A DNA stretch of 44,371 nt. It comes from a virus. Under the pieces are notes generated by a model. That model was not told the DNA's origin, did no database searches, and saw only the letters and a program-made list of their open reading frames with translations. Positions 7,863-40,885 of the stretch are shown here, one piece after another. Made by a program: the position numbers and the translations under genes. How positions within the stretch are numbered: the stretch's first letter is position 1; the number at the start of each line of letters is the position of its first letter. The DNA lies in the IMG/VR virus record IMGVR_UViG_3300031951_010912, positions 1 through 44,371 of that record; one strand, 5' to 3'.

Positions 7863-8323
7863 GCTTTCATTCCACAGTTTTTATCATAGCAAACATAATT
7901 CTGCATTGTTGCTGTTGGTAATTTACAAACAGGGCAAATTGTTTTTGCTAAAGAAGTTACTTCTTCATTAATTGAAAGATTGATATGCTTTCCTTTTTCA
8001 GTAACAACATATTCGCTTTTTGATTCAGATGGATTTACAATGAAACCCTGCTCATTATCCATCAATTGTTCAGTTGTCCAATTAAATGTAATTGGCGAAG
8101 TTGTATCAATATCAACTTTATAATCAGAAGAATCTTCATATTCTTCTTCAGTAAATTCTTCTTCAGTAACAAAATCTAAGTTACCATCAAACCGAAATCC
8201 TGACCCACGAAGGAAGTCTTCCATATAATATAAAACATCATTAAGACTATCTGCTTCGAACTCAACAGTAACTTCTGGATTACCACCATAACCCTCTTGC
8301 TTTGATTTAAATGTAAATTTCAT
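7859..8323 (-). CDS. Conserved phage protein with C-terminal zinc ribbon
   Basis: A 154-residue protein. The N-terminal part (KFTFKSKQEGYGGNPEVTVE, then a DVLYYMEDFLRGSGFRFDG helix) resembles a family widespread in phages. The middle is acidic. The last 25 residues form a zinc ribbon, CPVC...CYDKNC. It overlaps both neighbours by 4 bp. No catalytic motif can be seen; nucleic-acid or protein binding through the ribbon is plausible. Function unknown. Confidence 0.72.
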   Translation of the reverse strand: MKFTFKSKQEGYGGNPEVTVEFEADSLNDVLYYMEDFLRGSGFRFDGNLDFVTEEEFTEEEYEDSSDYKVDIDTTSPITFNWTTEQLMDNEQGFIVNPSESKSEYVVTEKGKHINLSINEEVTSLAKTICPVCKLPTATMQNYVCYDKNCGMKA

Positions 8324-8757
8324 AGTTCAACCTTTTCACCATCTTTTGTAAAAAATACGTCAATCTTTTTTTCATCACTCCATTTATTACAGTAATCATT
8401 ATCCTCATCACAAATACGTAATGCTTCTTCTTCTGTAACAACTCTATGAGAAACAATTGATTCACCAATATGTTCCTGAGAAAATTCTTTTGCTTCTTGC
8501 ATAGTCACAGTATCAAGCGCCCAATCTTTTTTACCAATAGGAACTTGAACCATATATCGCATACGAAATTGCGAGACAGTATCAACCAAAACCCATTCCA
8601 ACTCTTGCTTCTTGCTCATTTCCCAACTCCCATCACCAAGATCTTTCCAGTTAATTATATCTCCTTCTTTCCATTTTGTCAAATCAAGAATGTCTTGATT
8701 CAATGGAATATAGAGCTCTCCATCTTCGCTTTGCTCAACAACAATAGTCCATCTCAT
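8320..8757 (-). CDS. Conserved phage protein, AbrB-like N-terminal region
   Basis: A 145-residue protein starting MRWTIVVEQSEDGELYIPL. The segment LPLNQDIL...WKEGDIINWKDLGDGSWEM resembles a SpoVT/AbrB-type swapped-hairpin domain seen in small phage proteins. The rest (about residues 55-145) has no motif I know. I preferred the ATG at 8757 over the ATG at 8778 because it creates an ATGA junction with the preceding stop, as elsewhere in this window. It may be a regulator, but this is not shown. Confidence 0.65.
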   Translation of the reverse strand: MRWTIVVEQSEDGELYIPLNQDILDLTKWKEGDIINWKDLGDGSWEMSKKQELEWVLVDTVSQFRMRYMVQVPIGKKDWALDTVTMQEAKEFSQEHIGESIVSHRVVTEEEALRICDEDNDYCNKWSDEKKIDVFFTKDGEKVEL

Positions 8758-8972
8758 TGCATATTCTCTTTTGGCCACTCATGATTTTGCATAATCTCTA
8801 GGAACTCTTTAAACTTTTCTTGAGTTGAGTTATCTCTAAACTCTTGCGCAATTACTCCAAGAAAAACACCAAACACTTGCATCGGTGTTGTATCTTCTTC
8901 TTGTATTAATTCTTCATATAAAGAACGAACTTTTCCATATATTTCAAAAAATTTATCATCTTGATTATCCAT
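8754..8972 (-). CDS. Small helical conserved phage protein
   Basis: A 72-residue acidic helical protein (MDNQDDKFFEIYGKVRSLYE...). The start at 8972 is favoured over 8993 because GGAG lies 7 bases upstream. It overlaps the dCMP deaminase end by 8 bp and the next gene by 4 bp. No domain recognised. Confidence 0.65.
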   Translation of the reverse strand: MDNQDDKFFEIYGKVRSLYEELIQEEDTTPMQVFGVFLGVIAQEFRDNSTQEKFKEFLEIMQNHEWPKENMQ

Positions 8973-9402
8973 CAATTTTCTCCACTGTAACATTACATTT
9001 TTTAAGGAAATTTATACCATTATCATCACGATAACTATTACGATAAAAGACAGAACTAATACCAGCGCCATATATCATTTTCGCACAATGAATGCATGGA
9101 GCATGAGTTAGGAACATCGATGATTCTTTCCCAGATTCTCCGTCACGTGCGAGTTTGCTTATTGCGTTTGCTTCTGCGTGAATAACTTCGTCTTTAGTTT
9201 TTGTAATAATGCCACCATCTTCGTGGGTTTCGATAATTTCTTCGCATTCATTATCCCATCCTGCTGGTGTTCCATTGTAACCGATGGATATGACTCGATG
9301 CTCTTTGACCACGATTGCTCCAACTTTAAGTCTTTTGGCATGACTGAGATCTGCGAACCTTTCAGCCATGTCAATATACGCATTAACCCACTTTCTCTGC
9401 AC
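8965..9402 (-). CDS. dCMP deaminase
   Basis: A 145-residue zinc-dependent deoxycytidylate deaminase converting dCMP to dUMP, the substrate for thymidylate synthase (ThyX is also in this window). The zinc and catalytic motif HAEANAI (about residues 73-79) and PCIHCAKMI (about 100-108) are complete. The start is GTG (9402), giving MQRKWVNAYIDMAERFA, which fits the family opening. It overlaps the preceding gene by 20 bp. T4 has the same enzyme (gene cd). Assignment is secure. Confidence 0.92.
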   Translation of the reverse strand: MQRKWVNAYIDMAERFADLSHAKRLKVGAIVVKEHRVISIGYNGTPAGWDNECEEIIETHEDGGIITKTKDEVIHAEANAISKLARDGESGKESSMFLTHAPCIHCAKMIYGAGISSVFYRNSYRDDNGINFLKKCNVTVEKIDG

Positions 9403-9853
9403 TTTTCGCCTTCGATTTTTTTGCTGGTTCTGCTACCACCACTCCTTCTGGCAGAACATCAGGAAAGTTTTTCTTGACAAACTCTGCGGTAAATTTTGGA
9501 TAGAGCGCATCTAACTTTTGATCTTTAATTGCATTAACAATTTTTACTTCTGATGCATGCAGAGATTCAAGTAGTTGAACATATAACTGCTCACGACGTA
9601 GACGTTTTACATCACTAAATTTTGTGAAGATATAAAACTTCTTAGTCTCCATTCGAAGATTCGCTGCAGTCATTCCTATTGGCTGAGGTGCTGGCTTAAA
9701 TGGCGGTGCTCCATCAGGAAGAACAAATTTATACTCTGTATCAAAAGCGCATTTTAATACAGTTTTAAAAGCAAAATCTTCTTTGTAATTTGCCACTTTA
9801 GATGGATCTTTATTAATCTCATCAAAAACTTCGGTAATATATTTTGTTGCCAT
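9383..9853 (-). CDS. Conserved T4-like phage protein (DUF6433-like)
   Basis: A 156-residue protein (MATKYITEVFDEINKDP...) resembling a family found next to RNase H in many T4-like aquatic phages; I recall it as DUF6433, from memory only. The middle reads KCAFDTEYKFVLPDGAPPFK. The C-terminal tail is Lys/Ala-rich (AEPAKKSKAKSAEK), suggesting nucleic-acid contact. It touches the RNase H gene by one base. Function unknown; its position suggests DNA replication. Confidence 0.75.
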   Translation of the reverse strand: MATKYITEVFDEINKDPSKVANYKEDFAFKTVLKCAFDTEYKFVLPDGAPPFKPAPQPIGMTAANLRMETKKFYIFTKFSDVKRLRREQLYVQLLESLHASEVKIVNAIKDQKLDALYPKFTAEFVKKNFPDVLPEGVVVAEPAKKSKAKSAEKVG

Positions 9854-10725
9854 TAGAATTCCTCCACGTCATCTAGTAATAGTTTACAGCGATGTTCAGT
9901 CAAATACTTAAACACAGACATTTTATCGCCCTTTGGTTTGTTATTTAGATATCTATCTTTAATCCCTTGCTGAATATCTTCAGGAATATGTTTAAAATCT
10001 ACAAGAATTGAATTTCTTTCCCAGTTACGACGTTCATCATCATTCTTTAATGCTCTATCGATGTCTTCAAAAAATTCATCTAGTCGTTTAGCAGTAACTG
10101 ATTTTTGTTTTGTTCCAGTAACAAACACATCATCAGCAGAAAAAATATTAGGAATGCCATCACCAGAATCACCACGAACAATATGTTCAATAATTTGACG
10201 TGTAATTTCAGAATGTTTACTAGTAACTGCTTTCTTTTGGATTGGTGACCATTGTTTCACATTGTCAAAAATATGTAACTGCTTAAAATCTTTATCGCTA
10301 GAAACAATCATTACTTTATCATTATTACCGAACTCTTGTGTCAAGAAAGTCAACGAAGCAATAATGTCATCTGCCTCAGCACGATCCATATGGATTACTT
10401 TCCACGGAAAGTGTTCCTGTATATCAATGCGAATATCATTCAATGTATCAAAAATTAAGTTCCAGTCAAGATCGCTGGCTTCTCTAGATTTTTTACGCCC
10501 AGCTTTGTAGTTTGGGAACACATCGCGACGCCAGTAATGACGACCATCGCAACAAATAATAATCTCACCATACTCTTTTCCGTATTTCTTTTTATAATAT
10601 TTGATAGTCGATAGTGTTGAATGACGAATCAAATTTTTAATATCCGCTGGCGAACCTTTCTTCAGATCACTCTGAAACGCAAGGATATTACTTAATGCAA
10701 CTTGACTATAATCGATTAGAATCAT
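9853..10725 (-). CDS. rnh: T4 RNase H-type 5'-3' exonuclease (FEN-1 family)
   Basis: A 290-residue 5' nuclease that removes RNA primers and flaps from lagging-strand fragments, as T4 Rnh does. Visible acidic metal ligands are ILIDYSQ (Asp5), IICCDGRHYWRRDVFPNYKAGRK (Asp and the basic helical arch), MDRAEADDIIA, SSDKDFKQL and GDSGDGIPNI (the helix-hairpin-helix DNA-binding site). The length agrees with T4 Rnh (about 305). It overlaps the upstream unknown gene by 4 bp and is transcribed from the strong promoter before that gene. Confidence 0.92.
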   Translation of the reverse strand: MILIDYSQVALSNILAFQSDLKKGSPADIKNLIRHSTLSTIKYYKKKYGKEYGEIIICCDGRHYWRRDVFPNYKAGRKKSREASDLDWNLIFDTLNDIRIDIQEHFPWKVIHMDRAEADDIIASLTFLTQEFGNNDKVMIVSSDKDFKQLHIFDNVKQWSPIQKKAVTSKHSEITRQIIEHIVRGDSGDGIPNIFSADDVFVTGTKQKSVTAKRLDEFFEDIDRALKNDDERRNWERNSILVDFKHIPEDIQQGIKDRYLNNKPKGDKMSVFKYLTEHRCKLLLDDVEEF

Positions 10726-11819
10726 TTAAACACTTTCAATAAAATTGTTTCTTCATTAATCCGACCATTCGGTTGCGCTTCCTTCGTTTTGATATTACGA
10801 AACTCTGGAGTAAGACTACGCTTCGGAGTAGATAGCACTTTCGGTAGGAAATCCTCAGGTTTGCGAAGGGTTTTCATACTCGATCCCTTAACAGTATAAT
10901 TAATAATAGTTGTTCCCTTAACACCAAGACCATTGCTATCAGCAGAACGATACACTGCTAGACGACGATACTTCGTACTATAAACCCACAACTCATCAGC
11001 GCCAATTATATCAGCAGGATTAATACTCTTGAGATTTAATTCAGCGAACTCTTTAAGATATTTCATCTTAGCAACTTGTACGGAAGCAGGTTTTGCTTTG
11101 CGAGCACGTGGTTTACGAATTGCTTTGGCAGCAACTTTTTGCTCTTCGCATTGAGTAACTAGATCTTCAAGCAAAACAATAAATCGTTTGAGTTCTGTTC
11201 TCTTAAAGTTACTATATCCCTCAACGAGTTGCTCATCTTTCCCATCATAAGCATCTTGCATCTCAGCAATGCGTGGTTTAATAAATGATGCAATATATTT
11301 TACAATCTGTGAATTATAAGATTTAATCGGTGTTTTGAATTTAAAATCTTTTGGGCACTTAGAAAGAACAAATTCATCAATCTCGCCTTCGATTTCTCCA
11401 CCAATCTCACGTGCTTTCTCAAGAATACGATCTTGAATATTAATAACAACAGTTGGTGCTGTTACTTTTGCTTTTGTTTTTTTGGTTTGTTTTGCGGTAA
11501 GTTCTTTGATCTTGTTGTTCAAAAACAACTGTTCTGTTTCTTGGAGTTTGCCACCAAGATCAACAGAACGAATAAGAACACCGATGGTGTGGAAGTCAAA
11601 ATCAGGCAACGAGTCAAAATGCTCTGCTAGTTGCGTATGTTTTTGTTTTTTGTAATGTTTGACAACCCAAGACTTACGAGTTTTCGAATCAGTGTGTTTG
11701 GCATGCCAATTTAACACTTCATTCAAATCATAATCGTCTTCGGTCAAGAATGGCTCATCGCCTTTACCTGAAACCTTGTCAATAAGTTGTTGGCGCTTCG
11801 CTGCTTTATCACTAGACAT
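10722..11819 (-). CDS. Conserved T4-like phage protein upstream of RNase H
   Basis: A 365-residue basic protein. The N-terminal region carries an LNWHAKHTDSKTRKSWVVKHY segment. A Lys/Ala-rich linker (about 105-125) follows, and another basic linker AIRKPRARKAKPASVQVAK occurs near 232-250. The C-terminal part (IIGADELWVYSTKYRRLAVYR) looks beta-rich. It recalls a cyanophage protein that is always near the 5' nuclease, but I know no activity for it. It is the first gene behind a consensus sigma70 promoter with AAGGAG 7 bases before the ATG, so it is expected to be strongly expressed early. DNA binding is plausible from charge. Confidence 0.75.
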   Translation of the reverse strand: MSSDKAAKRQQLIDKVSGKGDEPFLTEDDYDLNEVLNWHAKHTDSKTRKSWVVKHYKKQKHTQLAEHFDSLPDFDFHTIGVLIRSVDLGGKLQETEQLFLNNKIKELTAKQTKKTKAKVTAPTVVINIQDRILEKAREIGGEIEGEIDEFVLSKCPKDFKFKTPIKSYNSQIVKYIASFIKPRIAEMQDAYDGKDEQLVEGYSNFKRTELKRFIVLLEDLVTQCEEQKVAAKAIRKPRARKAKPASVQVAKMKYLKEFAELNLKSINPADIIGADELWVYSTKYRRLAVYRSADSNGLGVKGTTIINYTVKGSSMKTLRKPEDFLPKVLSTPKRSLTPEFRNIKTKEAQPNGRINEETILLKVFK

Positions 11820-11841
11820 AAAAGTCTCCTTTCAAGTATAT

Positions 11842-11870
11842 ATTATACCTGAAACCATAATAATTGTCAA
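11842..11870 (-). promoter_or_regulatory. Consensus sigma70 promoter P1 (RNase H operon)
   Basis: On the minus strand: TTGACA (11870-11865), 17-bp spacer ending in AGG, TATAAT (11847-11842). Both boxes are perfect. The -35 begins 3 bases beyond the stop of the upstream small membrane gene. The predicted start of transcription near 11835 leaves a 15-base leader with AAGGAG. A short inverted repeat GTATA-ATA-TATAC overlaps the -10. Confidence 0.85.
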
Positions 11871-11873
11871 GCA

Positions 11874-12059
11874 TTATTTTTTGTTGGATAAACCAATTCC
11901 AGAAAGTCCTGCGAAGAGGAAAAAAGAAGCCAACCATGTTTCCAATGTATACGGAATAGTAAGAACTGGGAACAATGTATTAAGAGACCAAATAGTTGCT
12001 AATGGTGTAGCAATCAATAGAAATAAAATAAACAAAGCCCAAAATGTAAGTTTTGCCAT
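11874..12059 (-). CDS. Small two-helix membrane protein
   Basis: A 61-residue hydrophobic protein (MAKLTFWALFILFLLIATPL...), with two likely membrane helices (about 4-24 and 40-56). I used the inner ATG at 12059; the longer frame would overlap the upstream gene entirely. It is one base after the upstream membrane gene. Small inner-membrane phage proteins of this kind can be holins, exclusion proteins or host-modifying peptides; nothing distinguishes these here. Confidence 0.65.
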   Translation of the reverse strand: MAKLTFWALFILFLLIATPLATIWSLNTLFPVLTIPYTLETWLASFFLFAGLSGIGLSNKK

Positions 12060-12060
12060 A

Positions 12061-12291
12061 CTATTTCCCTTTGATAAGAGATGCTTTCTCACATGTAGAA
12101 CGAACGTCTCTACTGTTTGTAGTAAGTTGAGATGCGCAAGCAGCAGTAACAGGGTCAACGCCACGTGCAATTGCTGCGTTTACAATATCTTTCGAATTGT
12201 TACTGTCAACAACATAAAAATATGTTACACAACCAATTAGCGTTGTTGCAACAATTCCCAATACAGCAATAAACATATTACTTTCATTCAT
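12061..12291 (-). CDS. Small membrane-anchored protein with periplasmic Cys
   Basis: A 76-residue protein with one N-terminal membrane helix (MFIAVLGIVATTLIGCVTYFYVV, about residues 6-28). A soluble tail containing two Cys follows (TAACASQ and RSTCEKA), which could form a disulphide in the periplasm. The start at 12291 has GAGGG about 8 bases upstream and overlaps the previous gene by 8 bp. No family recognised. Confidence 0.65.
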   Translation of the reverse strand: MNESNMFIAVLGIVATTLIGCVTYFYVVDSNNSKDIVNAAIARGVDPVTAACASQLTTNSRDVRSTCEKASLIKGK

Positions 12292-12664
12292 TTTTATTTC
12301 CCTCTTCAAAAATAACTGGCTCTGGACACGATGGATAATCATCAGTAAGTTCACCATCGAATTCAATAATCGAGTCGTAACGGAAAGATCTCCAATCTTT
12401 TTTATCAAGATCAAAAACAGCAATTGAATCTTGCGGAGATTTTCTTTTACTACTTCCATCAGACTTCTTATCTTCTGGGATAAGTTCTTCATTTAATGTA
12501 CACCTCATCTTTCTTGTTTCACCATTTACTTTTTTAAAGACGAGATTAATTTCAATCTCTTTCAATAAACCAGCAAACCATTTTTTAAAATTGGGATGAT
12601 TGAGTTCTTCTTTACGTCTCTTCTCATCTTCAACTGTTTCAACATCAATAATATCACTTGTCAT
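12284..12664 (-). CDS. WYL_2 / Sm-like beta-barrel phage protein (DUF2693-like)
   Basis: A 126-residue acidic protein. The segment KMRCTLNEELIP followed by VFDLDKKDWRSFRYDSI is the signature of a small family in T4-like phages described as an Sm-like SH3 barrel (WYL_2). It binds an unknown ligand and is usually near early genes. It overlaps neighbours by 8 and 11 bp. Family recall is from memory; function unknown. Confidence 0.7.
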   Translation of the reverse strand: MTSDIIDVETVEDEKRRKEELNHPNFKKWFAGLLKEIEINLVFKKVNGETRKMRCTLNEELIPEDKKSDGSSKRKSPQDSIAVFDLDKKDWRSFRYDSIIEFDGELTDDYPSCPEPVIFEEGNKNE

Positions 12665-12995
12665 TTACTTCTCTCCATATTTCTGCGCCCTCAAAAATAA
12701 CACCTTTTTTCTTTGGATGCGCATAATTAAATTTATCATAAAGTTCATCTCTTGTTTTACCTTGGCAAATAAAAGATTGGTTTGTTGTATTGTAAAGAAA
12801 ATATTCTTCGTTGTGTTTTTCAACACGCATTGGAATTATATTTTCTTTAAGCTGATTGTGTATGTCATTAAACAACACATTTATTAACTGTTCTTGCAGT
12901 TGCCTCGCACGATGCCGAGCCCAAATCTCGCGAAGAACCCATCCAGCATTAAATGCGCCAATGACGATAGCAACTAAAAATAAGTAATCAATCAC
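12654..12995 (-). CDS. Membrane-anchored conserved phage protein
   Basis: A 113-residue protein starting at GTG (12995), forming a GTGA junction with the gene before it. One N-terminal membrane helix (DYLFLVAIVIGAFNAGWVL) precedes a cytoplasmic helix and a small beta domain (EYFLYNTTNQSFICQGKTRDEL). The helix-plus-small-domain layout recurs in T4-like phages. Function unknown. Confidence 0.7.
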   Translation of the reverse strand: MIDYLFLVAIVIGAFNAGWVLREIWARHRARQLQEQLINVLFNDIHNQLKENIIPMRVEKHNEEYFLYNTTNQSFICQGKTRDELYDKFNYAHPKKKGVIFEGAEIWREVNDK

Positions 12996-30888: not shown

Positions 30889-32235
30889 TTATCTAGAATT
30901 AGGAAGATGTAATGGATAACCTGTCATCTCTACACCACTTCCTTTTTTCTTTGGTGTTGACCCTTTTTGCCTTGCGCCAGATGCAGAACCTTTCGGTCTA
31001 CCACGCCCACGTTTCTCTGTTGATGATTCTTTGTCATCATCAGCATCATATCCCTTTTCGTCCTTATCCTTTTCACCCTTATAGTATTCTGTACCATATT
31101 TACCAGTCACTTTACGAGAAGGAAGATCTGACATTTTAATTTCGTCTAAAGAAAATCCCTTAAATGAAACTAATTCTGTTTCTTCTTTTTTGGTTTCGCG
31201 ATCTGCCGACAGCTTGGCAGCGATTGCCATCTGGCGACGTTTTTCCATAGATTTACCAGCAAACTGTGGAGCATCTGATTTCTTAAAATCTTTAATGACA
31301 TCGCCCATAGATGCTTTTGACATATTCATTTTTTCTGCGATTTCAATAAACTGCTCGATTAGTTGTAGTTCTTCTTGTGTAAATTCCATTTGGGTTTCCT
31401 CTGCTTTCATTGCAGCACGACCAATTGCTACGTTTAGGTTTTGTGCTCTTTTGTAGCCATACTCAGCTGGATCTAATTTAAGACCACGATTAATTTGTGC
31501 GCCTTTAGATGCAGCCATTAGATTCTTCATTGTCTTGTTTCGTTTTGCTTGATCAGATTTTTCTTCAACTTGTTCAACTTCTTCTTTCATTTTGGCAGCT
31601 TTCGCAGCTTTTTCTTTAGCCATTAATGCAGCAACTTTATTAAGTGTCTTAGAATCAGATGGTGTTAGTTTTGGTTTCACTGGAGGAATGTATCCTTCTT
31701 CAACATCCTCTTTAACTTCTTTCTTTGCCTCGTCTTCTTTTTTCTTAGCAGCCATTTGAGCCAAATGTTTGACACGAGACATTGGTGAATGTTTGGCGCC
31801 AGATTTATCTGTTACTGTATCAGAAACTTTCTTATATGGACCATCGAATGGAATATTTGTAGATTCTTTTGTTGGCACGCAGTTAGGAACTTTCTTTCCG
31901 TTCTTCATCTTCATACCAACTGCGGTATATCCTTTCCAGCATGCATCTTTAAGACCACCAGTGGCTTTCTCAACCTCATCGATCTGCTCAACTTCTTCTT
32001 TCATTTCTTTCTCTTCTTCATCATCTTCTTCATCTTCCATCTCGTTTTCTTCATCTTCCATCTCGTCGTCTTCTTCTTTTTCTTTGGCTTTCTCTGAGAC
32101 GAGTTCTTCTTTCATTTTCTTCGCACGCAGCTTGGCCAGATCTTCGCCTTCGATCTTTCCGTCTTTATCTACGTCAATTTTGTGCTGTCCGCCTTTTAGT
32201 GCTTCCAGATATATTTCTCTAAATGGGTTACTCAT
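30889..32235 (-). CDS. Acidic/basic EF-hand internal head protein (predicted)
   Basis: A 448-residue highly charged protein. The opening MSNPFREIYLEALKGG resembles a capsid-targeting peptide, though not with the exact cleavage motif. A DVDKDGKIEGEDL loop (about 22-34) is an EF-hand/dockerin-like calcium site. A long Glu/Asp run (about 48-85), then GLKDACWKGYTAVGMKMKNG (a module seen in several marine myovirus proteins), and repeated VEQIDE/VEQVEE/TELVSF segments follow. The C-terminus is basic (RGRGRPKGSASG). It probably is a head core or injected protein; function otherwise unknown. Confidence 0.65.
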   Translation of the reverse strand: MSNPFREIYLEALKGGQHKIDVDKDGKIEGEDLAKLRAKKMKEELVSEKAKEKEEDDEMEDEENEMEDEEDDEEEKEMKEEVEQIDEVEKATGGLKDACWKGYTAVGMKMKNGKKVPNCVPTKESTNIPFDGPYKKVSDTVTDKSGAKHSPMSRVKHLAQMAAKKKEDEAKKEVKEDVEEGYIPPVKPKLTPSDSKTLNKVAALMAKEKAAKAAKMKEEVEQVEEKSDQAKRNKTMKNLMAASKGAQINRGLKLDPAEYGYKRAQNLNVAIGRAAMKAEETQMEFTQEELQLIEQFIEIAEKMNMSKASMGDVIKDFKKSDAPQFAGKSMEKRRQMAIAAKLSADRETKKEETELVSFKGFSLDEIKMSDLPSRKVTGKYGTEYYKGEKDKDEKGYDADDDKESSTEKRGRGRPKGSASGARQKGSTPKKKGSGVEMTGYPLHLPNSR

Positions 32236-32666
32236 TTAAGGTGACTCCTTATCATCCATGCGTGTTTTTCGTGAATATCTATTCTTCCAGCGAGAAAATC
32301 AGCTAATCCCTGCTTATTCTCTCTAATAGCGATCTCCATCGATTTATTTAGTGATTCTAGAACTCCATCGTTAGCAATTTGAAGATCTTGAAGCATTTGT
32401 TCTACTGTAGACGAAACATTACCCTCGTTTAGTGTTTTATATTCATAAATTTCAGAAATAGTCCTTGGAGCATATTCCCCCATAGCACGAATTTCTTCTG
32501 CAATATGATCAATAGAACCATAAACATCTTCATACAATTTACCAAAAAAATCGTGAAACTGAGAAAAATTTATTCCCTCTACATTCCAGTGGTGTGATTG
32601 TGCTTTAAAATACATAACAAATGTATTTCCAAATAAAACTCTAAGAGATACTATCAATTCATTCAT
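32232..32666 (-). CDS. Dps-family ferritin-like protein
   Basis: A 144-residue Dps: four-helix ferritin fold that oxidises iron with peroxide and protects DNA. The dimer-interface ferroxidase residues are present: His26 (SHHWNVEG), His38 (SQFHDFF), Asp53 and Glu57 (DHIAEEIRAMG). Length is close to the bacterial family (about 155-170) without an N-terminal DNA-binding tail. It sits among virion genes, overlapping the EF-hand gene by 4 bp, and could be made late or packaged. It is rare cargo for a phage. Confidence 0.92.
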   Translation of the reverse strand: MNELIVSLRVLFGNTFVMYFKAQSHHWNVEGINFSQFHDFFGKLYEDVYGSIDHIAEEIRAMGEYAPRTISEIYEYKTLNEGNVSSTVEQMLQDLQIANDGVLESLNKSMEIAIRENKQGLADFLAGRIDIHEKHAWMIRSHLK

Positions 32667-32948
32667 TTAACAATCCCATGCTTTTCTTGACCAGTAATTT
32701 GCGCTGGTCTTATCTGTTAAATTACCCTGACCAGAAGATCTCGCGCAATAAGATTTTTTACGAGCAGGGATATGTTTTTTAATGGAAAGGTTTTTGTCAC
32801 CAAAGTTGACCTTTTGCGCTTTACCATCACCATCTGGATCAACAAAAACTTTAGATTTCTTAACATCACCAGCCATTGGTTTGTTAAGAGTGACTTTCTT
32901 ACCTTGATATGTTGCTTCATTGAGATAATACTCTTTAAACGATACCAT
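32667..32948 (-). CDS. Small phage protein with capsid-targeting-like N-terminus
   Basis: A 93-residue basic protein. The first residues MVSFKEYYLNEATYQGKK match the T4 internal-protein targeting pattern with a possible prohead-protease site after L-N-E (residue 11). The C-terminal SYCARSSGQGNLTDKTSANY then WSRKAWDC is a domain I recall from T4-like phages (DUF6321-like, from memory). It also has a DPDGDGK acidic loop. One-base spacing from Dps. Predicted to be inside the head. Confidence 0.68.
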   Translation of the reverse strand: MVSFKEYYLNEATYQGKKVTLNKPMAGDVKKSKVFVDPDGDGKAQKVNFGDKNLSIKKHIPARKKSYCARSSGQGNLTDKTSANYWSRKAWDC

Positions 32949-34001
32949 TTATGTAGCCCTCCCTGCGCTTTTTAATGAACTTAATGGGTCTGATTGAGAG
33001 TCAAACTTGTGGGCTTGAGAAGCAAACTTTTTACCATTGTGATAGAAGTGTACTGAACCACCACTAGATTTTACTGTAATATTCTTGTGATCTTTAAGAA
33101 TATGTTCATGATCTTCGCTTGGTTTGCTTGTATGATGCTGAACACCTTTAGCAGTTTGATATGTTGTATGTTTTATAAAAGTATGTCCTTTTTCTTCAGC
33201 TGGAGTTGAATGGGCATGAAGAACCTCACGAATATGCTTAACAACATGCTCGTGATTACCAGAATCTAAATGATGTTGTAATTCAGAAGCATGACTATGG
33301 GCAACTTTATGCAATAGATCTTGATTGCGTTTCTTTATATCCGCTTGCATTTTAGGATTACTTTTAAGAATTTCTTTACGTTCTACTTTATTTTTACCAC
33401 TCAAATCAGGATGCGCTTTAAGAATAGCAGCTTTGTGTGCATTAAAGTGTTCTCTGGCTTTCGAACCACCTGATTCCATACCAAGACTTGATGCTGGAAT
33501 GTTCTTATTTGATTTATCGCTGACCTTTAAACTTATACCATGATGTGTTTCTTTACCTGTTTTTGGATGTTTAGTAGTAACATATACATCAGAAGAATCT
33601 TCTTTCTGACTTGCTTTATGTCCTGTTACCTTTTCTGTGTCTCCAGGTTTTGAAGTCCAATGAACTGCATGAATTACATGACCCTTGTGAGTAGAATCTA
33701 TATGCGCTTTAATGTGTGCAGCAGCAGATTTTGCATTAGCTGCAATCCTGTTGTAATCATTCGGATGTATTTGTTTCTCTAAACGATCATGTGCTTGTTG
33801 GGGTGTCTCATCGTTTTCGTTTTTGTGCTTCTCTAGATGTTTGCCATTGTTTAAATGTCTACCAACTAGAAGTTCATGCAATACACCTTTGGTATTATTT
33901 GAAACACCACCTTCTTTAGTAGCATCATCTACTGCTTCATTTAATTCTTCCAAATACAGAGATTCGTATTCTTCAGTTATGAACCATTTAAATGTTTTCA
34001 T
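32949..34001 (-). CDS. His-rich internal protein with PD-(D/E)XK-like motif
   Basis: A 350-residue His/Lys-rich protein. It starts MKTFKWFITEEYES, close to T4 IPIII's MKTYQEFIAEA, with I-T-E as a possible protease site. A segment with DSSDVYVTTK...HHGISLKVSD (about 137-162) looks like a D...(S)xK nuclease core. A His-dense region (about 220-315) may bind metal or DNA. It is directly followed by the 93-aa gene. Nuclease role is plausible but unproven; packaging is inferred from the N-terminus. Confidence 0.6.
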   Translation of the reverse strand: MKTFKWFITEEYESLYLEELNEAVDDATKEGGVSNNTKGVLHELLVGRHLNNGKHLEKHKNENDETPQQAHDRLEKQIHPNDYNRIAANAKSAAAHIKAHIDSTHKGHVIHAVHWTSKPGDTEKVTGHKASQKEDSSDVYVTTKHPKTGKETHHGISLKVSDKSNKNIPASSLGMESGGSKAREHFNAHKAAILKAHPDLSGKNKVERKEILKSNPKMQADIKKRNQDLLHKVAHSHASELQHHLDSGNHEHVVKHIREVLHAHSTPAEEKGHTFIKHTTYQTAKGVQHHTSKPSEDHEHILKDHKNITVKSSGGSVHFYHNGKKFASQAHKFDSQSDPLSSLKSAGRAT

Positions 34002-37000
34002 TTTGTAAATTTCTTATGTTGTAATCTTGATTTTTCTATCTGACGGATTCTTGGCGCAACTCTGCGTGATAATCTGTCTACTAATGCTTTTCTAGTTTGT
34101 AAAAATCTCTCGACTCTTTCTTTTTCTGGTAATGTTGCTTTGTTTGGATCTTTACGCAGTAATCTACGCTTAATCATAGCAGTTGCTAAACGACGAGCAC
34201 GCTTGTTTATTGTTGTTTGATTTGATGTTCTTCTTAGCGCAATCTGAGCACGAACTTCACGTTTAGACTTTGTTCTAGCAAATCTCTGCTTACGGCGAAT
34301 ACGCTCCATACGAGAGATCTCAAGAATAATAATTTTACCTTCTTTTATCTTTGCTTCTTCTTCTTTATCTTCTTCTTCGTATCCATCAGTGTCTAATTCT
34401 TCTCCGCTCTCATCATCAACGATTGCGAATTCTTCATCATCATAGGCATCGATAATATGTTCTGGCTCTGACATACTTGTGATATCGTCATCGAAATCTT
34501 CTTCGTCAAAATTTTCTTCTTCAGTTTCTTCATGCATGTATCTTTTTTGTGCCATAGTGAATGAAGATTTGTTTTTTAAATTCTCTAAATCTGATACATT
34601 TTGAATTCCAAGAAATCTCTTCATAGCATCATATGTAAGTTTTCCTGTATCTCCAACAACGAACTTACTATCATCGTATGTAGATTGCTCATGCTCTTCA
34701 TACTCAATTTTTTCTTCACCCAAAGCACGACTTAAACCACGAATAGCATAATCATGTTTCTTTAAATGAGCAGGACCTGCCCAGTCAGATTTCCTCATTG
34801 ATTCTCTTTCAGTTTTCAAATGACGAATTATTTGTTTTGTTTTTATAACACCATGTTTTTTAACAATTGATCCGTAGTCAGAATGACCTTTTATATGGTT
34901 ATCATAAACAGAAGACGATTCCTCTTTAACTTGTTTCTTTTGTTCTGCTTCTTTCTTCTCACGTGCTTGGCGTTCTTGTTTAGCGATACGTGACATTTTC
35001 TTTAAGAAAGATGGTTTGTTGTAATACGCAGTAGCCTCGCCGAGTTCTTCTCTCGACTTTAGATAATCTCTTACGCTTGAAATATAATCCTGAGCCAATG
35101 TTATTTTTGATTGAACCCATTCTGGCATATTGTCATCCATTGACAGCATGTTAATAAGTTCCTGAGAATTTCTTACTACTGTTTGCAGTTGAGTTCTTGC
35201 CATTGCGCCTTCGTAATCGTACTCGCCTTTGTCGATTGTTGAAATCGCTTCTTCTAATGCATTAAGAGCATTATCAATCAGTTCAAATTCTTCAGCAAGT
35301 TCTAAATGCGTATTATGTTTAGACTTCATTGCTGCTTTAAACGCATTTGCTTTATCAGCAGGAACTTTTACATATGTTGCTTTGTCGCTTATTTCTGAAA
35401 CTTTAGCGTCATGATCTTTAAATGTTTTCTCATGACCAGGAGTAACTTTCTGACGATGATCAATTCTAAACTCTACGTGCGATTCGTCAAGTTCTGTTTC
35501 TTCTTTAACAGATTTACCAGCTGCAGGATTTCCATAAGCTGCTTTACGTGCTTTTAAAATTTCTTTACTTTTTTTCAGTTTAGCAGCCAACTCTGGATCA
35601 CCCTTTATCATCCAACCTGGACGCATATTATGTTCTGGTTTTAATCCTTCCTTTACTTCTTCTTTGTCATCTTCTTTTTCTGAATTCTTAAAACGCAATG
35701 TATGGGCACGGATTTTTCTACCACGCTTGTCTAATTTTGTGTCAGAAGTTTCAATCTCATCGTATCCTTCTTCAATCTTTCCTGGAACAAGTTTCTCATC
35801 ATAGTTGATGCCTGCTTCTCTTGCTGTTTGTAGCATATTTTTAAGAACAGACATATATTCTGGACGCATAGGTTTATTGCGTATTTTCCTTAGCGCATTA
35901 TTAACAAGTTGATCTGCTGATGACGATTTTTCAACATCAGGAACACCAAGAGCATCAGCAATGATTCTTGCCACTTTTATTTTGTCTGATGAACTGAACT
36001 TCATCTCTATTAGTTCTTTAAAAGTTTTCATAGATTCTTCCATGCCCTCTTCTTTTTCCATATGGTACTGCGCACGCACTTGATCAATATCGTGAATTGC
36101 GTGGTTAATGTAATCTGCGTGGTGGTGTAACTCTCCAAGTTTCATCAGATATTCTTGAGCCATCTGAATAGACGAATTAAATTGGTCAACTTCTTCTTCG
36201 CTAATCTCATCGTATTCAACTGCTTTATTTAAAATAGAATGATACTCGTCAGTTGATTTTAATGCGTTAAGAACTGCAACTGGATCAACATCATCTCTAG
36301 ATGTTAGTCTAGAAAATGCTGCAATAACTTGTGGATGTTTAATGTTTTGTGGTTTATAATTCTTATATGAGAAATCGCTTGTGTCTTCGGTTTCTTGGTA
36401 ATCTTCAACAACTGTTACATTGTGCAACCACTTACGATGTGTATTACCAGAAGTATCAACCACAGTAAGATAATTGGAGCCTCTATCAAGAATTTCATAT
36501 CTCTCTCCGTTTGATTCAACTATCTGACCAACTTTGAAAATTTCGCCTCTGTGGTATGACTCTCGTAACCAATCAGTAACTGTAACTTGTTCCTTAACAA
36601 CATCAAGACCCATTGCTTGACGGATTTCGTTCATCAAACGACGACCATCCATTGTGGTAAGAGTTGTTGGTAATCCCTTTTTGAATGTATCAAAATCGCC
36701 TTTTTTAGCAGCTTCTCTCATTTTGGTACCAGACATTCCAGTTGCATCATCGCTATCTGGATCACGCTCACCAGCAGACACTACTTGTATTGTGTTAAAG
36801 TTAAATTCTTTGCCGTTGTACTGATTTAACAGTTTGGTGTACTCTACAACACGATCGCTTCCTGCGACCATAATAATATCTTTGTATTTTTTATTAAGTT
36901 CTTTAGCAACTTCGATGAATGTTCTTGTTGATGGACCAGCAGCCATAAATTTTGCTGTTGGAAACATTCTTTTGAGATAGTAAACCTTACGATCTACTGG

Positions 37001-37189
37001 GAGTGGGTTTTTAGTTTTGTCCTGAGTTCTGGACGCATAGATTACATGAGAAGCATTATGAGTAGATGCAAGACGCTCTACTGCACGAACCAATAATTCG
37101 TGACCTGTCGTTGGTGGCTGGAAGCGACCAAACGCAAAAACAATCTTTTTAGAAGGTAATTCCTTCAGGAATTGGCTATATGCTTTCAT
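33998..37189 (-). CDS. 1063-residue nucleotidylyltransferase fusion, predicted internal head protein
   Basis: A multi-domain protein. Residues about 1-12 (MKAYSQFLKEL) resemble a capsid-targeting peptide with L-K-E cleavage motif. At 14-200 is a cytidylyltransferase/NMN adenylyltransferase domain: FAFGRFQPPTTGHELL (HxGH-type), SDRVVEY and GMSGTKMRE. Next is a small beta domain (about 220-262, NGERYEILDRGSNYLTVVD). A long charged, low-complexity region with repeated ETELDES-type pieces and acidic runs (about 890-960) follows. The last 100 residues are very basic (RRKQRFARTKSKREVRAQ). Nucleotidyltransferase fold is firm; substrate unknown. Phage relatives are annotated cytitidyltransferase. Confidence 0.78.
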   Translation of the reverse strand: MKAYSQFLKELPSKKIVFAFGRFQPPTTGHELLVRAVERLASTHNASHVIYASRTQDKTKNPLPVDRKVYYLKRMFPTAKFMAAGPSTRTFIEVAKELNKKYKDIIMVAGSDRVVEYTKLLNQYNGKEFNFNTIQVVSAGERDPDSDDATGMSGTKMREAAKKGDFDTFKKGLPTTLTTMDGRRLMNEIRQAMGLDVVKEQVTVTDWLRESYHRGEIFKVGQIVESNGERYEILDRGSNYLTVVDTSGNTHRKWLHNVTVVEDYQETEDTSDFSYKNYKPQNIKHPQVIAAFSRLTSRDDVDPVAVLNALKSTDEYHSILNKAVEYDEISEEEVDQFNSSIQMAQEYLMKLGELHHHADYINHAIHDIDQVRAQYHMEKEEGMEESMKTFKELIEMKFSSSDKIKVARIIADALGVPDVEKSSSADQLVNNALRKIRNKPMRPEYMSVLKNMLQTAREAGINYDEKLVPGKIEEGYDEIETSDTKLDKRGRKIRAHTLRFKNSEKEDDKEEVKEGLKPEHNMRPGWMIKGDPELAAKLKKSKEILKARKAAYGNPAAGKSVKEETELDESHVEFRIDHRQKVTPGHEKTFKDHDAKVSEISDKATYVKVPADKANAFKAAMKSKHNTHLELAEEFELIDNALNALEEAISTIDKGEYDYEGAMARTQLQTVVRNSQELINMLSMDDNMPEWVQSKITLAQDYISSVRDYLKSREELGEATAYYNKPSFLKKMSRIAKQERQAREKKEAEQKKQVKEESSSVYDNHIKGHSDYGSIVKKHGVIKTKQIIRHLKTERESMRKSDWAGPAHLKKHDYAIRGLSRALGEEKIEYEEHEQSTYDDSKFVVGDTGKLTYDAMKRFLGIQNVSDLENLKNKSSFTMAQKRYMHEETEEENFDEEDFDDDITSMSEPEHIIDAYDDEEFAIVDDESGEELDTDGYEEEDKEEEAKIKEGKIIILEISRMERIRRKQRFARTKSKREVRAQIALRRTSNQTTINKRARRLATAMIKRRLLRKDPNKATLPEKERVERFLQTRKALVDRLSRRVAPRIRQIEKSRLQHKKFTK

Positions 37190-37218
37190 TTAATCCATCT
37201 ATATGAGTAATAATCAAT

Positions 37219-37225
37219 TATTTAG
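37219..37225 (-). promoter_or_regulatory. Weak candidate late promoter (CTAAATA)
   Basis: The 43-bp gap before the 1063-residue gene holds CTAAATA followed by an AATAAT-TG-ATTATT inverted repeat. It is one base off the T4 late consensus in its core. Low support. Confidence 0.22.
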
Positions 37226-37232
37226 TCATCTT

Positions 37233-38450
37233 TTATCTTTGCTCGATCCAAGTAAGCGATGCTACTACATCCTTGTTTCCTACAGAACTAGCAGCAGCAA
37301 TAGTAAGAGTGTCGCTGACTGTGCCTAAATTGCTGCGTCCAAGTTGATAAACTGTATCTGTATCTACTCTGATGCCAGTTCCTCCGCCACCAGCTGAAAT
37401 AATACCTGATTGTAGATCATTTCCATTCGTAATAGCACCAGTGCTGGTATAGTTGTACTGTGTAAAGGCATCAGAATCAGGGTGATCTACCCAAGTTCCG
37501 TTTATCGTAGCATTTCGAATAAGTTTAAAATATATGGTGGTATTATCAATAGTAGCTGCTTGGAAAAATGTTGGTAGTACTATTCCTGTTAGAGCTGTGC
37601 TTTTTAATCTAATACTTACTACAGGATAAAAAGTTCTAGCAGCAGGTAAATTAATACCAGTTAGGGGAGTCAATATACTTTCAGCGATTCCCAACTTCTC
37701 AACCGATCCTTCTGCCAATAAACTATTACTGCCCTGCCACAAGTAGTGAGTGCCAGCTACACCTGTAAGATTTTCTATTTCAAGTCTAATAGGTAAAAAT
37801 GGAGTTTTACACCATGGAGTTTGTAGTCTATTACCATTGTTAACAACATGTATAAGTCTTGGCGTACCATCAATTAAAAACGAAAACCTTATCTGGCCAG
37901 CACCATACCACTCATAATCCATTACCACTAACTGTTGCGCTTGGGGATCTGCTGTAATACCACTAGGACCATTGCCATCTAATTTATCGTAGTTCCAATC
38001 TTTGCGATATATTCTTTCTACTGTAGGTACAGCACCATCGCTATTGATTACTACACAAGCATACTGTGGCTCTCCTGTCAATGCATCGACTGTACCACAG
38101 TCCTCAAAGAAAAATCCATCAGTACCATCAAACATACCAAATCTACGACGTATACCAGTAACTGGAGTTTGCAACCTAACAGCAAATGCTATGGTTTGTG
38201 TACGACCTGGAGTATAACGCTGTACATTGCGAGTTTGTCGTATGACTTTAGAACCCACTTGATTGGTTACTTGCATACGAACTTGACTTAATGAAGCGTC
38301 AAATACAGCAGAACCACCATTGTATGTAGCTTCATCCCATACATCTGTCTCTTTACCATACTGAAATGTGTTAAAGAAAATGGTTTGCTGTGTCTGTACT
38401 TTAACACGACCCTTACTGTCTAATTCTGTTTCTTGAAATAAATACGTCAT
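37233..38450 (-). CDS. Virion protein, tail-fibre/appendage type
   Basis: A 405-residue beta-rich protein (MTYLFQETELDSKGRVK...). The pattern RTQTIAFAVRLQTPVTGIRRRFGMFDG with many Trp/Gly/Asn segments resembles a structural protein family found in T4-like aquatic phages. I used the ATG at 38450 (ATGA with the preceding stop); the frame also has GTG at 38462. The C-terminal third looks like a carbohydrate-binding beta sandwich. Function inferred from neighbours and composition. Confidence 0.72.
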   Translation of the reverse strand: MTYLFQETELDSKGRVKVQTQQTIFFNTFQYGKETDVWDEATYNGGSAVFDASLSQVRMQVTNQVGSKVIRQTRNVQRYTPGRTQTIAFAVRLQTPVTGIRRRFGMFDGTDGFFFEDCGTVDALTGEPQYACVVINSDGAVPTVERIYRKDWNYDKLDGNGPSGITADPQAQQLVVMDYEWYGAGQIRFSFLIDGTPRLIHVVNNGNRLQTPWCKTPFLPIRLEIENLTGVAGTHYLWQGSNSLLAEGSVEKLGIAESILTPLTGINLPAARTFYPVVSIRLKSTALTGIVLPTFFQAATIDNTTIYFKLIRNATINGTWVDHPDSDAFTQYNYTSTGAITNGNDLQSGIISAGGGGTGIRVDTDTVYQLGRSNLGTVSDTLTIAAASSVGNKDVVASLTWIEQR

Positions 38451-39100
38451 ACTATTTTCCACCCATCTCTATAGATCATTTGAATACCACCATTGTCAAC
38501 CCTTAATATAAATCCATCAGGATCATTGTCAACATTGCCTTGAACAATAATTGGAAATCTAGAGCAACGACCTGACTCGTCTTTGATTATAATATATCTA
38601 CCATTTTTTACATTTGTTGGTAGTGTTATTGTTACTGTTCCTGCATAGTTAATTCCAACATAGTAGTCTTTTCTTCCAACTGTATAAGTTGCTGCTGTTA
38701 CTAGTGTTGTTTGGTGGTCGAGATTAACAACATCTCCAGCGCCACCACCTGGACCATAAGCAGCAATTCGACCAATCGCTTGTTCAAGAAACTGCATCTT
38801 CTTGATAATACCAGCGATGTTTGGATCAACAGGTTGTGGAGCAGGTTGCTGAAAAGAATCTTTGTTCGTTACTTCTTTTTCAACAATAACTTCTTTCTCA
38901 ACGATAACTTCTTTTATAATTTCTTTTGGTTGCGCTTTCTTCTCAACAAATATTCCAAGCAATTCACCAATCTCATTATTTTTTTTGAGTCTTTCCTGAA
39001 CACCCTTTAGTGCTTGACCAGCAGGAGTGCTTTCCTGTGCTTTTTTTGATTCTGCTTTGGCTTTAGCAAGTTCAGCAAACAACTCTTTTAGTTCACTCAT
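38447..39100 (-). CDS. Virion protein with coiled-coil and repeat region
   Basis: A 217-residue protein: helical Lys/Glu-rich N-terminus, an IIKEVIVEKEVIVEKEV repeat (about 72-88), a Pro-rich linker, and a C-terminal beta domain (TVTITLPTNVKNGRYIIIKDESG) like those in phage tail fibres. Start at 39100 makes an ATGA junction. It probably anchors or trimerises with the 405-residue protein, by inference from adjacency. Confidence 0.7.
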   Translation of the reverse strand: MSELKELFAELAKAKAESKKAQESTPAGQALKGVQERLKKNNEIGELLGIFVEKKAQPKEIIKEVIVEKEVIVEKEVTNKDSFQQPAPQPVDPNIAGIIKKMQFLEQAIGRIAAYGPGGGAGDVVNLDHQTTLVTAATYTVGRKDYYVGINYAGTVTITLPTNVKNGRYIIIKDESGRCSRFPIIVQGNVDNDPDGFILRVDNGGIQMIYRDGWKIV

Positions 39101-39333
39101 ACTACTGCCAATATTCCTTGCGCTGCAGCTACAATCCAACGACAGGCTACTTCGTCATTAGCCAATTCTTGTTGCGCTCTAATTTCAGCAACCTCTTTAA
39201 CAAGAAACTCGTATTCTTCTTTAGTAAGTTGACCACTTGTGTATTGCTCATAAAATGAAATTAAATCACTAGCAAGAGTACCTGCTGCACCACCCATTCC
39301 TGCTTGCTGCTGTAATTGTTCTATTAAATTCAT
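39097..39333 (-). CDS. Small helical phage protein
   Basis: A 78-residue protein (MNLIEQLQQQAGMGGAAGTL...) with helical LTKEEYEFLVKEVAEIRAQQEL. The inner ATG at 39333 has GGAG six bases upstream and ATGA overlap with the lipoprotein. The end (WIVAAAQGILAVV) is hydrophobic. Function unknown. Confidence 0.65.
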   Translation of the reverse strand: MNLIEQLQQQAGMGGAAGTLASDLISFYEQYTSGQLTKEEYEFLVKEVAEIRAQQELANDEVACRWIVAAAQGILAVV

Positions 39334-39674
39334 CTTCCTCTCCATGCGTTAGTAATTACTTCTACTCTTGTCTTTTGTAATTTAACAACACCTTCGCAGA
39401 ATTTCTCATTGCTTGATGCTTGCGCTTTCTTTAGAGCATCTTCCATATTACCTAATGCTTCAGCTTGTGGATCTTTGCGTAAAGTAGCGTAGGTTTTTAA
39501 TCTCTCAACTTTATCAAAAGTTGTTTTCCAATTTCTATCTGCGCAAGATAACTTGTTAACAGATATCTTTAAATCAACAAGATCGCCAAACATAACTGGA
39601 TCGTGCGGAATTGGCATAATAAAAGAGCATCCTGTTAAAACAACTAATGCTATACCTGCTATTAGTTTCTTCAT
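39330..39674 (-). CDS. Phage lipoprotein in structural region
   Basis: A 114-residue protein: signal MKKLIAGIALVVLTGC with lipobox LTGC (Cys 16), then a helical domain with two further Cys (KLSCADRNW and EKFCEGV). It should be outer-membrane linked. It lies between a KxDG-motif protein and fibre-type genes. Its place suggests late expression; possible roles are exclusion of other phages or lysis. No family recognised. Confidence 0.72.
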   Translation of the reverse strand: MKKLIAGIALVVLTGCSFIMPIPHDPVMFGDLVDLKISVNKLSCADRNWKTTFDKVERLKTYATLRKDPQAEALGNMEDALKKAQASSNEKFCEGVVKLQKTRVEVITNAWRGR

Positions 39675-39676
39675 AC

Positions 39677-40885
39677 TTACCTCGGTCTATTTAAGAAGTT
39701 GTTTCTAGAAAATTCAAGACGATCAACCAACTTAACAACACGATCTCCCTGAACAGCCACGAATCCTTCTGGTGTTGTTGGAACAAGAGAGTTTCCACGC
39801 TCAACAAAACCAGCGACTCCTGTTTCTAATTTATTCAGTTTATTTACAATGATCATTTTACATGTAACAATCAAAGAAAACGCTTCATACGCTTTCTCAA
39901 GAACAACTCTGTTCTTATCAAGGAAATCTACAATTTGTTGTCTCTCGTCAGATTTCTTTTGTTTTGTTGTTGATGTTTTTACTTTATCGATATCTTTTTG
40001 CAACTCATCATGAACATATTGAGCAAACCCATGCGCATGCGTGAGACCAGTATAATTACCTGCACGAACATTGGCGTTGTTGTATTTTGCCATTAGCACA
40101 GATACCTGTTTATGTGTAGAAAGATATGATAAAAAAGAATTGGGGATTGCAACTTTAAGTTTTTCTAATTGAGCATGCGCTTTTAACACAGTTGCTTGCT
40201 CGTCAGCATTCAAAGACAAGTCTTTTGTTTTATCTTTTAAAATCGCATCATCAACAAAAACATTCTTTGATTTTTTAAGACTAGCGATTGAATAACCGAA
40301 GTTTGCTTTCATAGTAGCTGGGTCAGAGCCAGTATAGAAAGTATGGAAAATAATCCCCATTTTGCTTGCGAGGATTCTTCTACCAAGATCACTATCAGCA
40401 GCGACAGCATAAACAATAGTATTGGGTTTGAAAGTAACATGTTTTACTCCATCAATAACTAATGGTTTCAAATCATTGTCAGTATAAAGGAAATCTCCCT
40501 GCACTGTTCCATTTATTCCAAGTTCTTTACAATATTTTAATGCGAATTTTAGTTTTTCTACAAGACCAGCAGAATGTCCATGGTTCTCTTCAATATCTTT
40601 ATCTGTACGATTTAATTTAGGAGAAGCATTAAACGCTGACTTTGAAGCAACCCAAAAATCTGTTCCTGAATCATGAATGATAATTGATGGCGATCCATCC
40701 CATTTCGTAGTAATTAATGTTCCTGGCGCTTTATTGTACAGAGCATTAACATATATTTGAATGCTCTCAACAGCAAAATTCAATCCTGATCTACCTTCTT
40801 CAAACATCAAATCTTCTAAATGTGAAAGGTGCTTGAGGCGAGTGGTGTCGTTTGCTGTTTCTGTTAAGTAATCGGAGAATCTCAT
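39677..40885 (-). CDS. KxDG nucleotidyltransferase (DNA/RNA ligase-like), predicted head protein
   Basis: A 402-residue protein. It opens MRFSDYLTETAND, with L-T-E as a candidate prohead-protease site. The ligase/capping-type motif I is visible as TTKWDGSPS (Lys about residue 61), followed by FWVASKSAF (motif Ia-like), GTVQGDFLY (motif III/IV-like) and GFVAVQGDRVVKLVDR (motif V-like, about 372-387). T4-like phages carry such a protein, I recall as DUF6267. It would form an enzyme-AMP intermediate. Nucleic-acid ligation or capping is inferred. Confidence 0.72.
   Translation of the reverse strand: MRFSDYLTETANDTTRLKHLSHLEDLMFEEGRSGLNFAVESIQIYVNALYNKAPGTLITTKWDGSPSIIIHDSGTDFWVASKSAFNASPKLNRTDKDIEENHGHSAGLVEKLKFALKYCKELGINGTVQGDFLYTDNDLKPLVIDGVKHVTFKPNTIVYAVAADSDLGRRILASKMGIIFHTFYTGSDPATMKANFGYSIASLKKSKNVFVDDAILKDKTKDLSLNADEQATVLKAHAQLEKLKVAIPNSFLSYLSTHKQVSVLMAKYNNANVRAGNYTGLTHAHGFAQYVHDELQKDIDKVKTSTTKQKKSDERQQIVDFLDKNRVVLEKAYEAFSLIVTCKMIIVNKLNKLETGVAGFVERGNSLVPTTPEGFVAVQGDRVVKLVDRLEFSRNNFLNRPR

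Follow-up and report, generated by a model that had tools for sequence, protein, structure and literature searches.

The internal proteins (IPs) of phage T4, i.e., IPI, IPII and IPIII, have unrelated bodies with only a leader in common, which has aromatic residues at positions 4 and 7, Ile or Leu at position 8 and Glu at position 10, and which is cut by the protease gp21 under an (L/I)-x-E rule. Mutants of IPIII have revealed that residues 4 and 7 direct targeting, while residues 8 and 10 direct processing (PMC9026906). Injected internal proteins led by such a capsid-targeting sequence (CTS) are well known in T-even phages, where the genes have likewise been found via the leader (PMC9026906; PMC12373910). 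In this work, we have analysed the virus record IMGVR_UViG_3300031951_010912, a genome fragment whose entire 44,371 bases form our window, and we have found in a gene cluster at 30889-40885 a set of proteins with unrelated bodies and a leader of this kind, which ends in the (L/I)-x-E motif. The T4 IPs are small GmrSD restriction enzyme inhibitors (PMC12373910); unlike them, the window, in marine relatives distant from T4, has the leader on enzyme-like proteins and on a mosaic 1063-aa protein.

Two further systems are close to the one considered here. T4 Alt, an ADP-ribosyltransferase, is a large enzyme that loses an N-terminal propeptide to gp21 and is ejected into the host (PMC9026906), as we propose for the window proteins, but we have seen no homology between them, and its start, MELITELFDE, is a different leader. 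In the giant phages 201phi2-1, phiKZ and SPN3US, a gp21-related protease also trims many internal proteins after Glu (PMC9026906, PMC10052503), whereas these proteases are diverged and have their own cleavage logos, and the window leader is of the T4 kind. In the open-access literature (subscription papers were outside the search), we have found no report of such leaders in cyanophages or pelagiphages, and only a T4 review linked "capsid targeting" to cyanophages. Since CTS-led internal proteins are well known in T-even phages, the mechanism itself is a known one; what looks new is that the cargo consists of enzymes, that one carrier is a mosaic, and that the leaders have spread among marine relatives.

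Our reading, to which we give a probability of about 0.87, is that the leaders of the cluster are capsid-targeting sequences of the T4 kind and substrates of a gp21 homologue, and that the proteins are packaged, trimmed, and ejected with the DNA. In this T4-like marine phage, the cluster would then encode internal head proteins, with a leader of 9 to 22 residues on each of at least four proteins that are otherwise unrelated. The aromatic/hydrophobic face of the leader would bind the prohead core; a gp21-type S77 prohead protease would cut after Glu in (I/L)-x-E↓(A/S/T...), where the arrow marks the predicted cut here and below, and would free the mature protein inside the head; mature proteins would leave the head into the host together with the DNA. 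The cargo would comprise a KxDG nucleotidyltransferase/ligase-like protein, a nucleotidylyltransferase in a mosaic carrier that has additional candidate cut sites inside it, what may be a restriction-like nuclease, and a small 93-aa domain. A sequence-only reading of this DNA had already proposed that such proteins are packaged, cleaved and injected, and overall it is supported. Packaging is well supported, as others have shown it for homologues of the nucleotidylyltransferase in the work cited below, and it would extend to the other cluster proteins. Processing is likely, with cut positions predicted most strongly for the 93-aa and 350-aa families, while ejection and a role in the host would follow by analogy with the T4 IPs and Alt.

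The shared leader in the window and in related phages

The N-termini quoted in the sequence-only reading were all found where it had placed them, on the minus strand, and the shared aromatic peptide ending in (I/L)-x-E was borne out for the following four proteins, whose leader sequences include MKTFKWFITEEYESLYLEELNEA, MVSFKEYYLNEA and MRFSDYLTETA. Megablast of the window region against phages gave no match.

39677..40885, minus strand: DUF6267 protein, 402 aa, with KxDG and other covalent nucleotidyltransferase motifs (PF19782, E 2.9e-86)
40859..40885, minus strand: leader of the DUF6267 protein, MRFSDYLTE↓TANDT; Glu9 is kept in homologues
33998..37189, minus strand: 1063-aa carrier, with a nucleotidylyltransferase domain (~residues 14-290), then acidic linkers and more modules (phrog_3041/395)
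37160..37189, minus strand: capsid-targeting-like leader of the nucleotidylyltransferase, MKAYSQFLKE↓LP; matches the pattern set from T4 IPIII
32949..34001, minus strand: 350-aa His-rich protein, opening MKTFKWFITEE, possibly a PD-(D/E)xK-like nuclease (alignment, AlphaFold model)
33936..34001, minus strand: leader of the 350-aa protein in two parts, MKTFKWFITE for targeting and LNE↓A at residues 20-23, with a variable linker in between (homologue alignment)
32667..32948, minus strand: 93-aa protein with the domain xYxGKxVxLNKP, N-terminus MVSFKEYYLNEA (phrog_7595, E 6.8e-12)
32916..32948, minus strand: leader of the 93-aa protein, MVSFKEYYLNE↓ATYQGKK; its junction tracks the S77 protease

A regular expression built around this finding matched 4 of the 66 predicted window genes, all four being the named ones, where 0.20 would be expected from shuffled N-termini and 0.19 from internal positions. 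As circularity was to be avoided, a second pattern was taken from T4 alone, being set beforehand from IPIII (aromatic at 4 and 7, I/L at 8, E at 10). This pattern matched 2/66 window genes against 0.014 expected (P ~1e-4). Among the 3,589 proteins of the related phages that remained after de-duplication, it matched 77 where 0.48 would be expected, a figure that overstates the independent events since many of the matches are orthologues. In T4 it returned IPII, IPIII and gp61.1 alone; as it missed IPI and Alt, its strength is specificity and not sensitivity. The IPIII spacing is exact in the nucleotidylyltransferase and the 350-aa protein, and shifted by one residue in the DUF6267 and 93-aa proteins. 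A looser pattern gave 160 matches over 34 clusters of unrelated protein bodies (~15 of the 160 expected by chance). Within the window, a looser pattern also caught three unrelated genes, which tells that the specificity of the motif depends on spacing, and for this reason it was dropped as within-window evidence. As for gp61.1 of T4 (NC_000866, 18966-19130; locus L209), a protein of 54 aa of unknown function that opens MKTFKEFIKED, its fit to the IPIII pattern is no worse than that of IPII and IPIII, and it is a candidate additional internal protein.

All 17 homologues of the 350-aa family, down to 27% identity, share Phe4 and Glu10. The codon table of the family shows that positions 4, 7, 8 and 10 hold their residue class while positions 3, 6 and 9 vary freely, and the four constrained positions are the same four that mattered in the IPIII mutants (PMC9026906). 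There is thus selection at the peptide level on the targeting and cutting positions. Beyond the leader lies a linker that differs in length and sequence between homologues, and in 13 of 14 of them it is followed by hxE↓A/S/K, abutting the conserved domain; T4 IPI (MKTFKEFTSTTTPVSTITEA) has the same two-part layout. This conserved second LxE↓A junction and the IPI-like arrangement make residue 22, and not residue 10, the one after which the 350-aa protein is probably cut. In the AlphaFold model of this protein (predicted local distance difference test, pLDDT, 81), residues 16-22 are below 50. For the DUF6267 protein, 22 of 23 homologues have retained Glu9, upstream of a variable-length spacer, and the structure prediction leaves residues 1-18 disordered (pLDDT below 50).

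Putative prohead protease junctions and virion proteins

The five isolate relatives that were examined first (HTVC008M, Melnitz, C48C1, DLP6, S-WAM2) all have the T4-type prohead protease (S77, PF03420), and so do Immutovirus and two large window-related contigs, G001 and G002. The 93-aa domain occurs in very different phages. On the S77 side, which consists of the window (counted via its relatives), the relative G002, C48C1, HTVC008M, Melnitz and Immutovirus, hxE stands directly before the domain in 6/6 phages or lineages; the junctions read LNE↓ATYQGKK, LTE↓AEYQGKK, LEE↓AEFQGKK, MME↓SEYQGKD and LDE↓GEYRGKD, and in Melnitz and Immutovirus they sit within a longer protein. Among ten phages without PF03420 (Aegir, HTVC026P, HTVC111P, HTVC112P, HTVC202P, CRP-901, CRP-2, CRP-3, CRP-6 and uvMED-S30-C28), none shows an hxE junction of this kind ahead of the domain, and in most of them the open reading frame (ORF) begins at the domain itself (MAKYKGRTVKLNKP, MATYKGKSVSLNKP; MATYKGKS, MAKYKGRT). 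The association of junction and protease has a Fisher P of 1.2e-4, or 0.008 once related phages are thinned. A cut after Glu would give the 93-aa protein the same N-terminus that leaderless phages obtain from their start codon. The gp23 propeptides of the relatives end alike (FLSE↓A, FLTE↓T, FLGE↓I, LLGE↓A, ALFE↓A), as does that of T4 gp23 (FLTE↓A). One homologue of the 93-aa family (L189:13559-13963), opening MSNSIDE↓ATYQGKK, has retained the cut site and lost the aromatic targeting part.

Homologues of the window nucleotidylyltransferase, described as cytidylyltransferases or NMNAT-like proteins, are reported from mass spectrometry of purified virions of S-SM1 (PMC3037559), S-CREM2 (PMC10665884), S-SCSM1 (PMC9602691, and a note in its record) and S-SZBM1 (PMC9146016). 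Leaders are found in all four of these virion-detected proteins, namely MKKFSAFLNE↓A, MKNFSSFLTE↓A, MKSFLQFLKE↓A and MRFRQFIIE↓A, while the passages of the four papers on these proteins mention neither leader nor cleavage. The neighbouring DUF6267 protein of S-SZBM1 has a leaderless start, MAKNTHLEHLED, and it is not among the 30 virion proteins of this phage (PMC9146016). S-CREM2 has four proteins with an FxxF(L/M)xE-type leader (ORFs 12, 13, 14 and 154), and all of them are virion proteins; the leaders of ORF12 (annotated as a Cas9-like nuclease), ORF13 (hypothetical) and ORF14 (kinase) are RFASFMAEA, LHSFLTEQ and RFDAFLTEE, respectively, ORF12 and ORF14 being non-structural. With a looser pattern, 5 of 48 S-CREM2 virion proteins match versus 2 of 188 others (P 0.004). 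In ORF12 (7704-10313) and ORF14 (10579-12846) of this phage (OR473000), the leader-like peptide starts several residues within the called start, either because the wrong start codons were assigned or, perhaps, because an extended leader is tolerated.

Candidate cargo domains, the mosaic carrier and neighbouring genes

The DUF6267 protein matches its profile (PF19782) with 290.6 bits against a cut-off of 27. K61, D63, E373, G374, V376 and K385 are invariant and G64 nearly so, which gives the KxDG motif and the later EGxV and Lys motifs of the covalent nucleotidyltransferase (ligase/capping) superfamily. Its model, for which the alignment rows were viral contigs only, comes closest in fold to DNA and RNA ligases, and these matches are weak (E 0.055 or worse, template modelling (TM) score ~0.2). 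A paper search on DUF6267 found nothing. At several loci (L156:1494-3698, L155:3364-5283, L163:9992-11944, L158:9998-12127) and in phrog_455, ligase-like and nucleotidylyltransferase domains are fused behind a single leader, and this fusion in one ORF suggests that the two act together.

The nucleotidylyltransferase matches the PHROG cytidyltransferase families phrog_3041 and phrog_395 (E 1.6e-71 and 1.1e-54) and has the motifs GRFxPPTxGH and SGTKMR; against PF01467 it scores 19.7 bits, just under the cut-off of 21. The 1063-aa protein that carries it is a mosaic; in S-WAM2 and in locus L138, its modules have ORFs of their own that open in a leader-like way. Its internal features are as follows:

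36005..36037, minus strand: internal junction MEE↓S and a second leader-like MKTFKELIE (from residue 387), kept in two related contigs
35009..35233, minus strand: carrier module, residues 653-727; its own ORF, opening MKTFKQLREE, in S-WAM2 (67% identity over 61 aa)
34001..34513, minus strand: carrier C-terminal module, residues 893-1063; its own 150-aa ORF, opening MITFQEFLSTDITEEE, in locus L138

This protein has 10 candidate hxE↓A/S/G sites, compared with 4.8 in shuffles, and at the internal MEE↓SMKTFKELIE junction a ggaag lies 5 nt ahead of the atg. The junction and the candidate sites suggest extra cutting within the head, or internal starts.

The 350-aa protein has no Pfam or PHROG match. 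Its tblastn search against isolate phages gave none, and close relatives turned up in IMG/VR; profile searches of the PDB with the 350-aa and DUF6267 alignments gave nothing significant. Counted with Met, E43, D138, S157 and K159 are invariant. The best PDB match of the model is HinP1I (E 7.5e-3, probability 0.92), followed by MspI (E 0.07), both weak with a TM score of ~0.3, and in the D...SxK motif a Ser takes the place of Glu/Gln, which is unusual for PD-(D/E)xK. Taken together, the weak resemblance and the invariant D...SxK make a PD-(D/E)xK-like nuclease plausible.

Two further genes belong to the cluster:

32232..32666, minus strand: Dps/ferritin-like protein, leaderless, within the cluster (PF00210, E 4.6e-24; phrog_3636)
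30889..32235, minus strand: EF-hand protein, 448 aa, an acidic/Lys-rich mosaic with one EF-hand-like loop, N-terminus MSNPFREIYLEAL, loose leader MSNPFREIYLE↓A

The EF-hand protein had been called similar to the four leader proteins, and a loose fit is indeed there. Its leader, however, ends in Y-L-E instead of (I/L)-x-E, as in homologues that open MNPFRKVYLEQ or MNPFRQVYIEQ (Y-L-E/Y-I-E), so we do not accept it as a full member of the leader family, and the case for its being packaged and cleaved is weak. Its match to PF13202 has an E of 0.031, which is below the cut-off. Residues 95-124 of this protein (window 31864-31953) hold the short module ACWKGYxxVGxKxKxGKxVPNCVP, which is found again in many proteins of these phages that have nothing else in common. 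Genes similar to the Dps/ferritin-like one are located near these families in many relatives.

Leaders were also observed on other genes of the related phages. At L098:8088-20211 (IMGVR_UViG_3300033182_000902), an expanded internal-protein locus, about ten genes in a row have MKTFxQ(Y/F)(I/L)xE-like leaders; one encodes a J-domain protein, and others form pairs and triplets of paralogues from unknown families. A RimK-like ATP-grasp protein of Melnitz-3 (L023:82-1131) has the leader MTQKFSQFITEE, and HAD phosphatase-like proteins (L158:8075-8734, L156:4595-5221, L152:8427-9056), with leaders such as MIKFKQFILEESKGSLHVFDIDDTLF, are a candidate cargo class.

Competing explanations and meaning for marine phages

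Several observations weigh against packaging, trimming and ejection. PF03420/gp21 is absent from the window's own record, a 44,371-base fragment; an S77 protease of the window phage would be expected from its presence in G001 and G002. The virion detections cover cyanophage homologues and not the window phage itself, and the cyanophage authors caution that enzymes detected in virions could be contaminants (PMC10665884, PMC9602691), although the leader on such S-CREM2 enzymes argues for cargo. By regular expression, HTVC008M and S-WAM2 are without strict leaders, the HTVC008M nucleotidylyltransferase opening MKTLKELLRKK, and some cyanophages have DUF6267 without a leader. In the window nucleotidylyltransferase, Leu-Pro follows the Glu, unlike known E↓A sites, which makes its cleavage less sure than its targeting; many homologues have Ala or Ser in this P1' position.

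The leaders might target the proteins and be cut while the proteins serve as core or scaffold parts of head assembly rather than as effectors in the next host. Two of the carriers are long acidic/Lys-rich mosaics, the 1063-aa protein being rich in candidate cut sites, and the T4 core proteins gp22 and gp67 are fragmented and mostly lost (PMC9026906). Yet a scaffold has no use for conserved enzyme-like domains such as KxDG and nucleotidylyltransferase, and the nucleotidylyltransferase homologues stay in mature virions (PMC3037559, PMC10665884, PMC9602691, PMC9146016), so we consider this explanation unlikely, if still worth keeping in mind. We find it quite improbable that the leader is instead a docking peptide for another phage or host partner and no prohead protease substrate. 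In favour of docking, cleavage in the marine T4-like phages examined here is a prediction, and the first LxE of the 350-aa family precedes E, Q or I, not A; but the 93-aa junction tracks S77 and a cut there yields the leaderless N-terminus, a second LxE↓A is kept just before the 350-aa domain, and the gp23 sites have the same grammar.

That the N-termini are alike by chance, or through a DNA-level signal such as a translational element in the first codons, is hardly credible. Codons 2, 4 and 5 are indeed identical (AAA, TTT, AAA) in all 13 of the 350-aa-family sequences compared, but positions 7, 8 and 10 switch codon and still hold residue class, with 3, 6 and 9 free, and the junction is retained despite linkers of variable length. 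Chance is opposed by the 77 matches against 0.48 expected. We have rejected chance and a purely DNA-level signal on the codon table and the pattern statistics.

Beyond the cluster, we see even odds that in marine T4-like phages (Kyanoviridae and relatives) the T4-type targeting and cleavage code is a general loading system for a changing enzyme arsenal, which would include ligase-like proteins, nucleotidylyltransferases, restriction-like nucleases, HAD phosphatases, J-domain proteins, RimK-like ATP-grasp proteins and kinases. New cargo would arise when a leader is added to a free-standing gene, and some cargo would be polyproteins split in the head by the prohead protease.

If packaging, trimming and ejection of these leader-bearing proteins hold true, a simple sequence rule would read the injected cargo of very abundant marine phages from genomes and metagenomes. 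The recurrent cytidylyltransferases in cyanophage virions, which their discoverers could not separate from contamination, would be explained. Moreover, what these phages deliver at infection would come down to a set of proteins that can be tested one by one, among them probably enzymes of counter-defence or host takeover.

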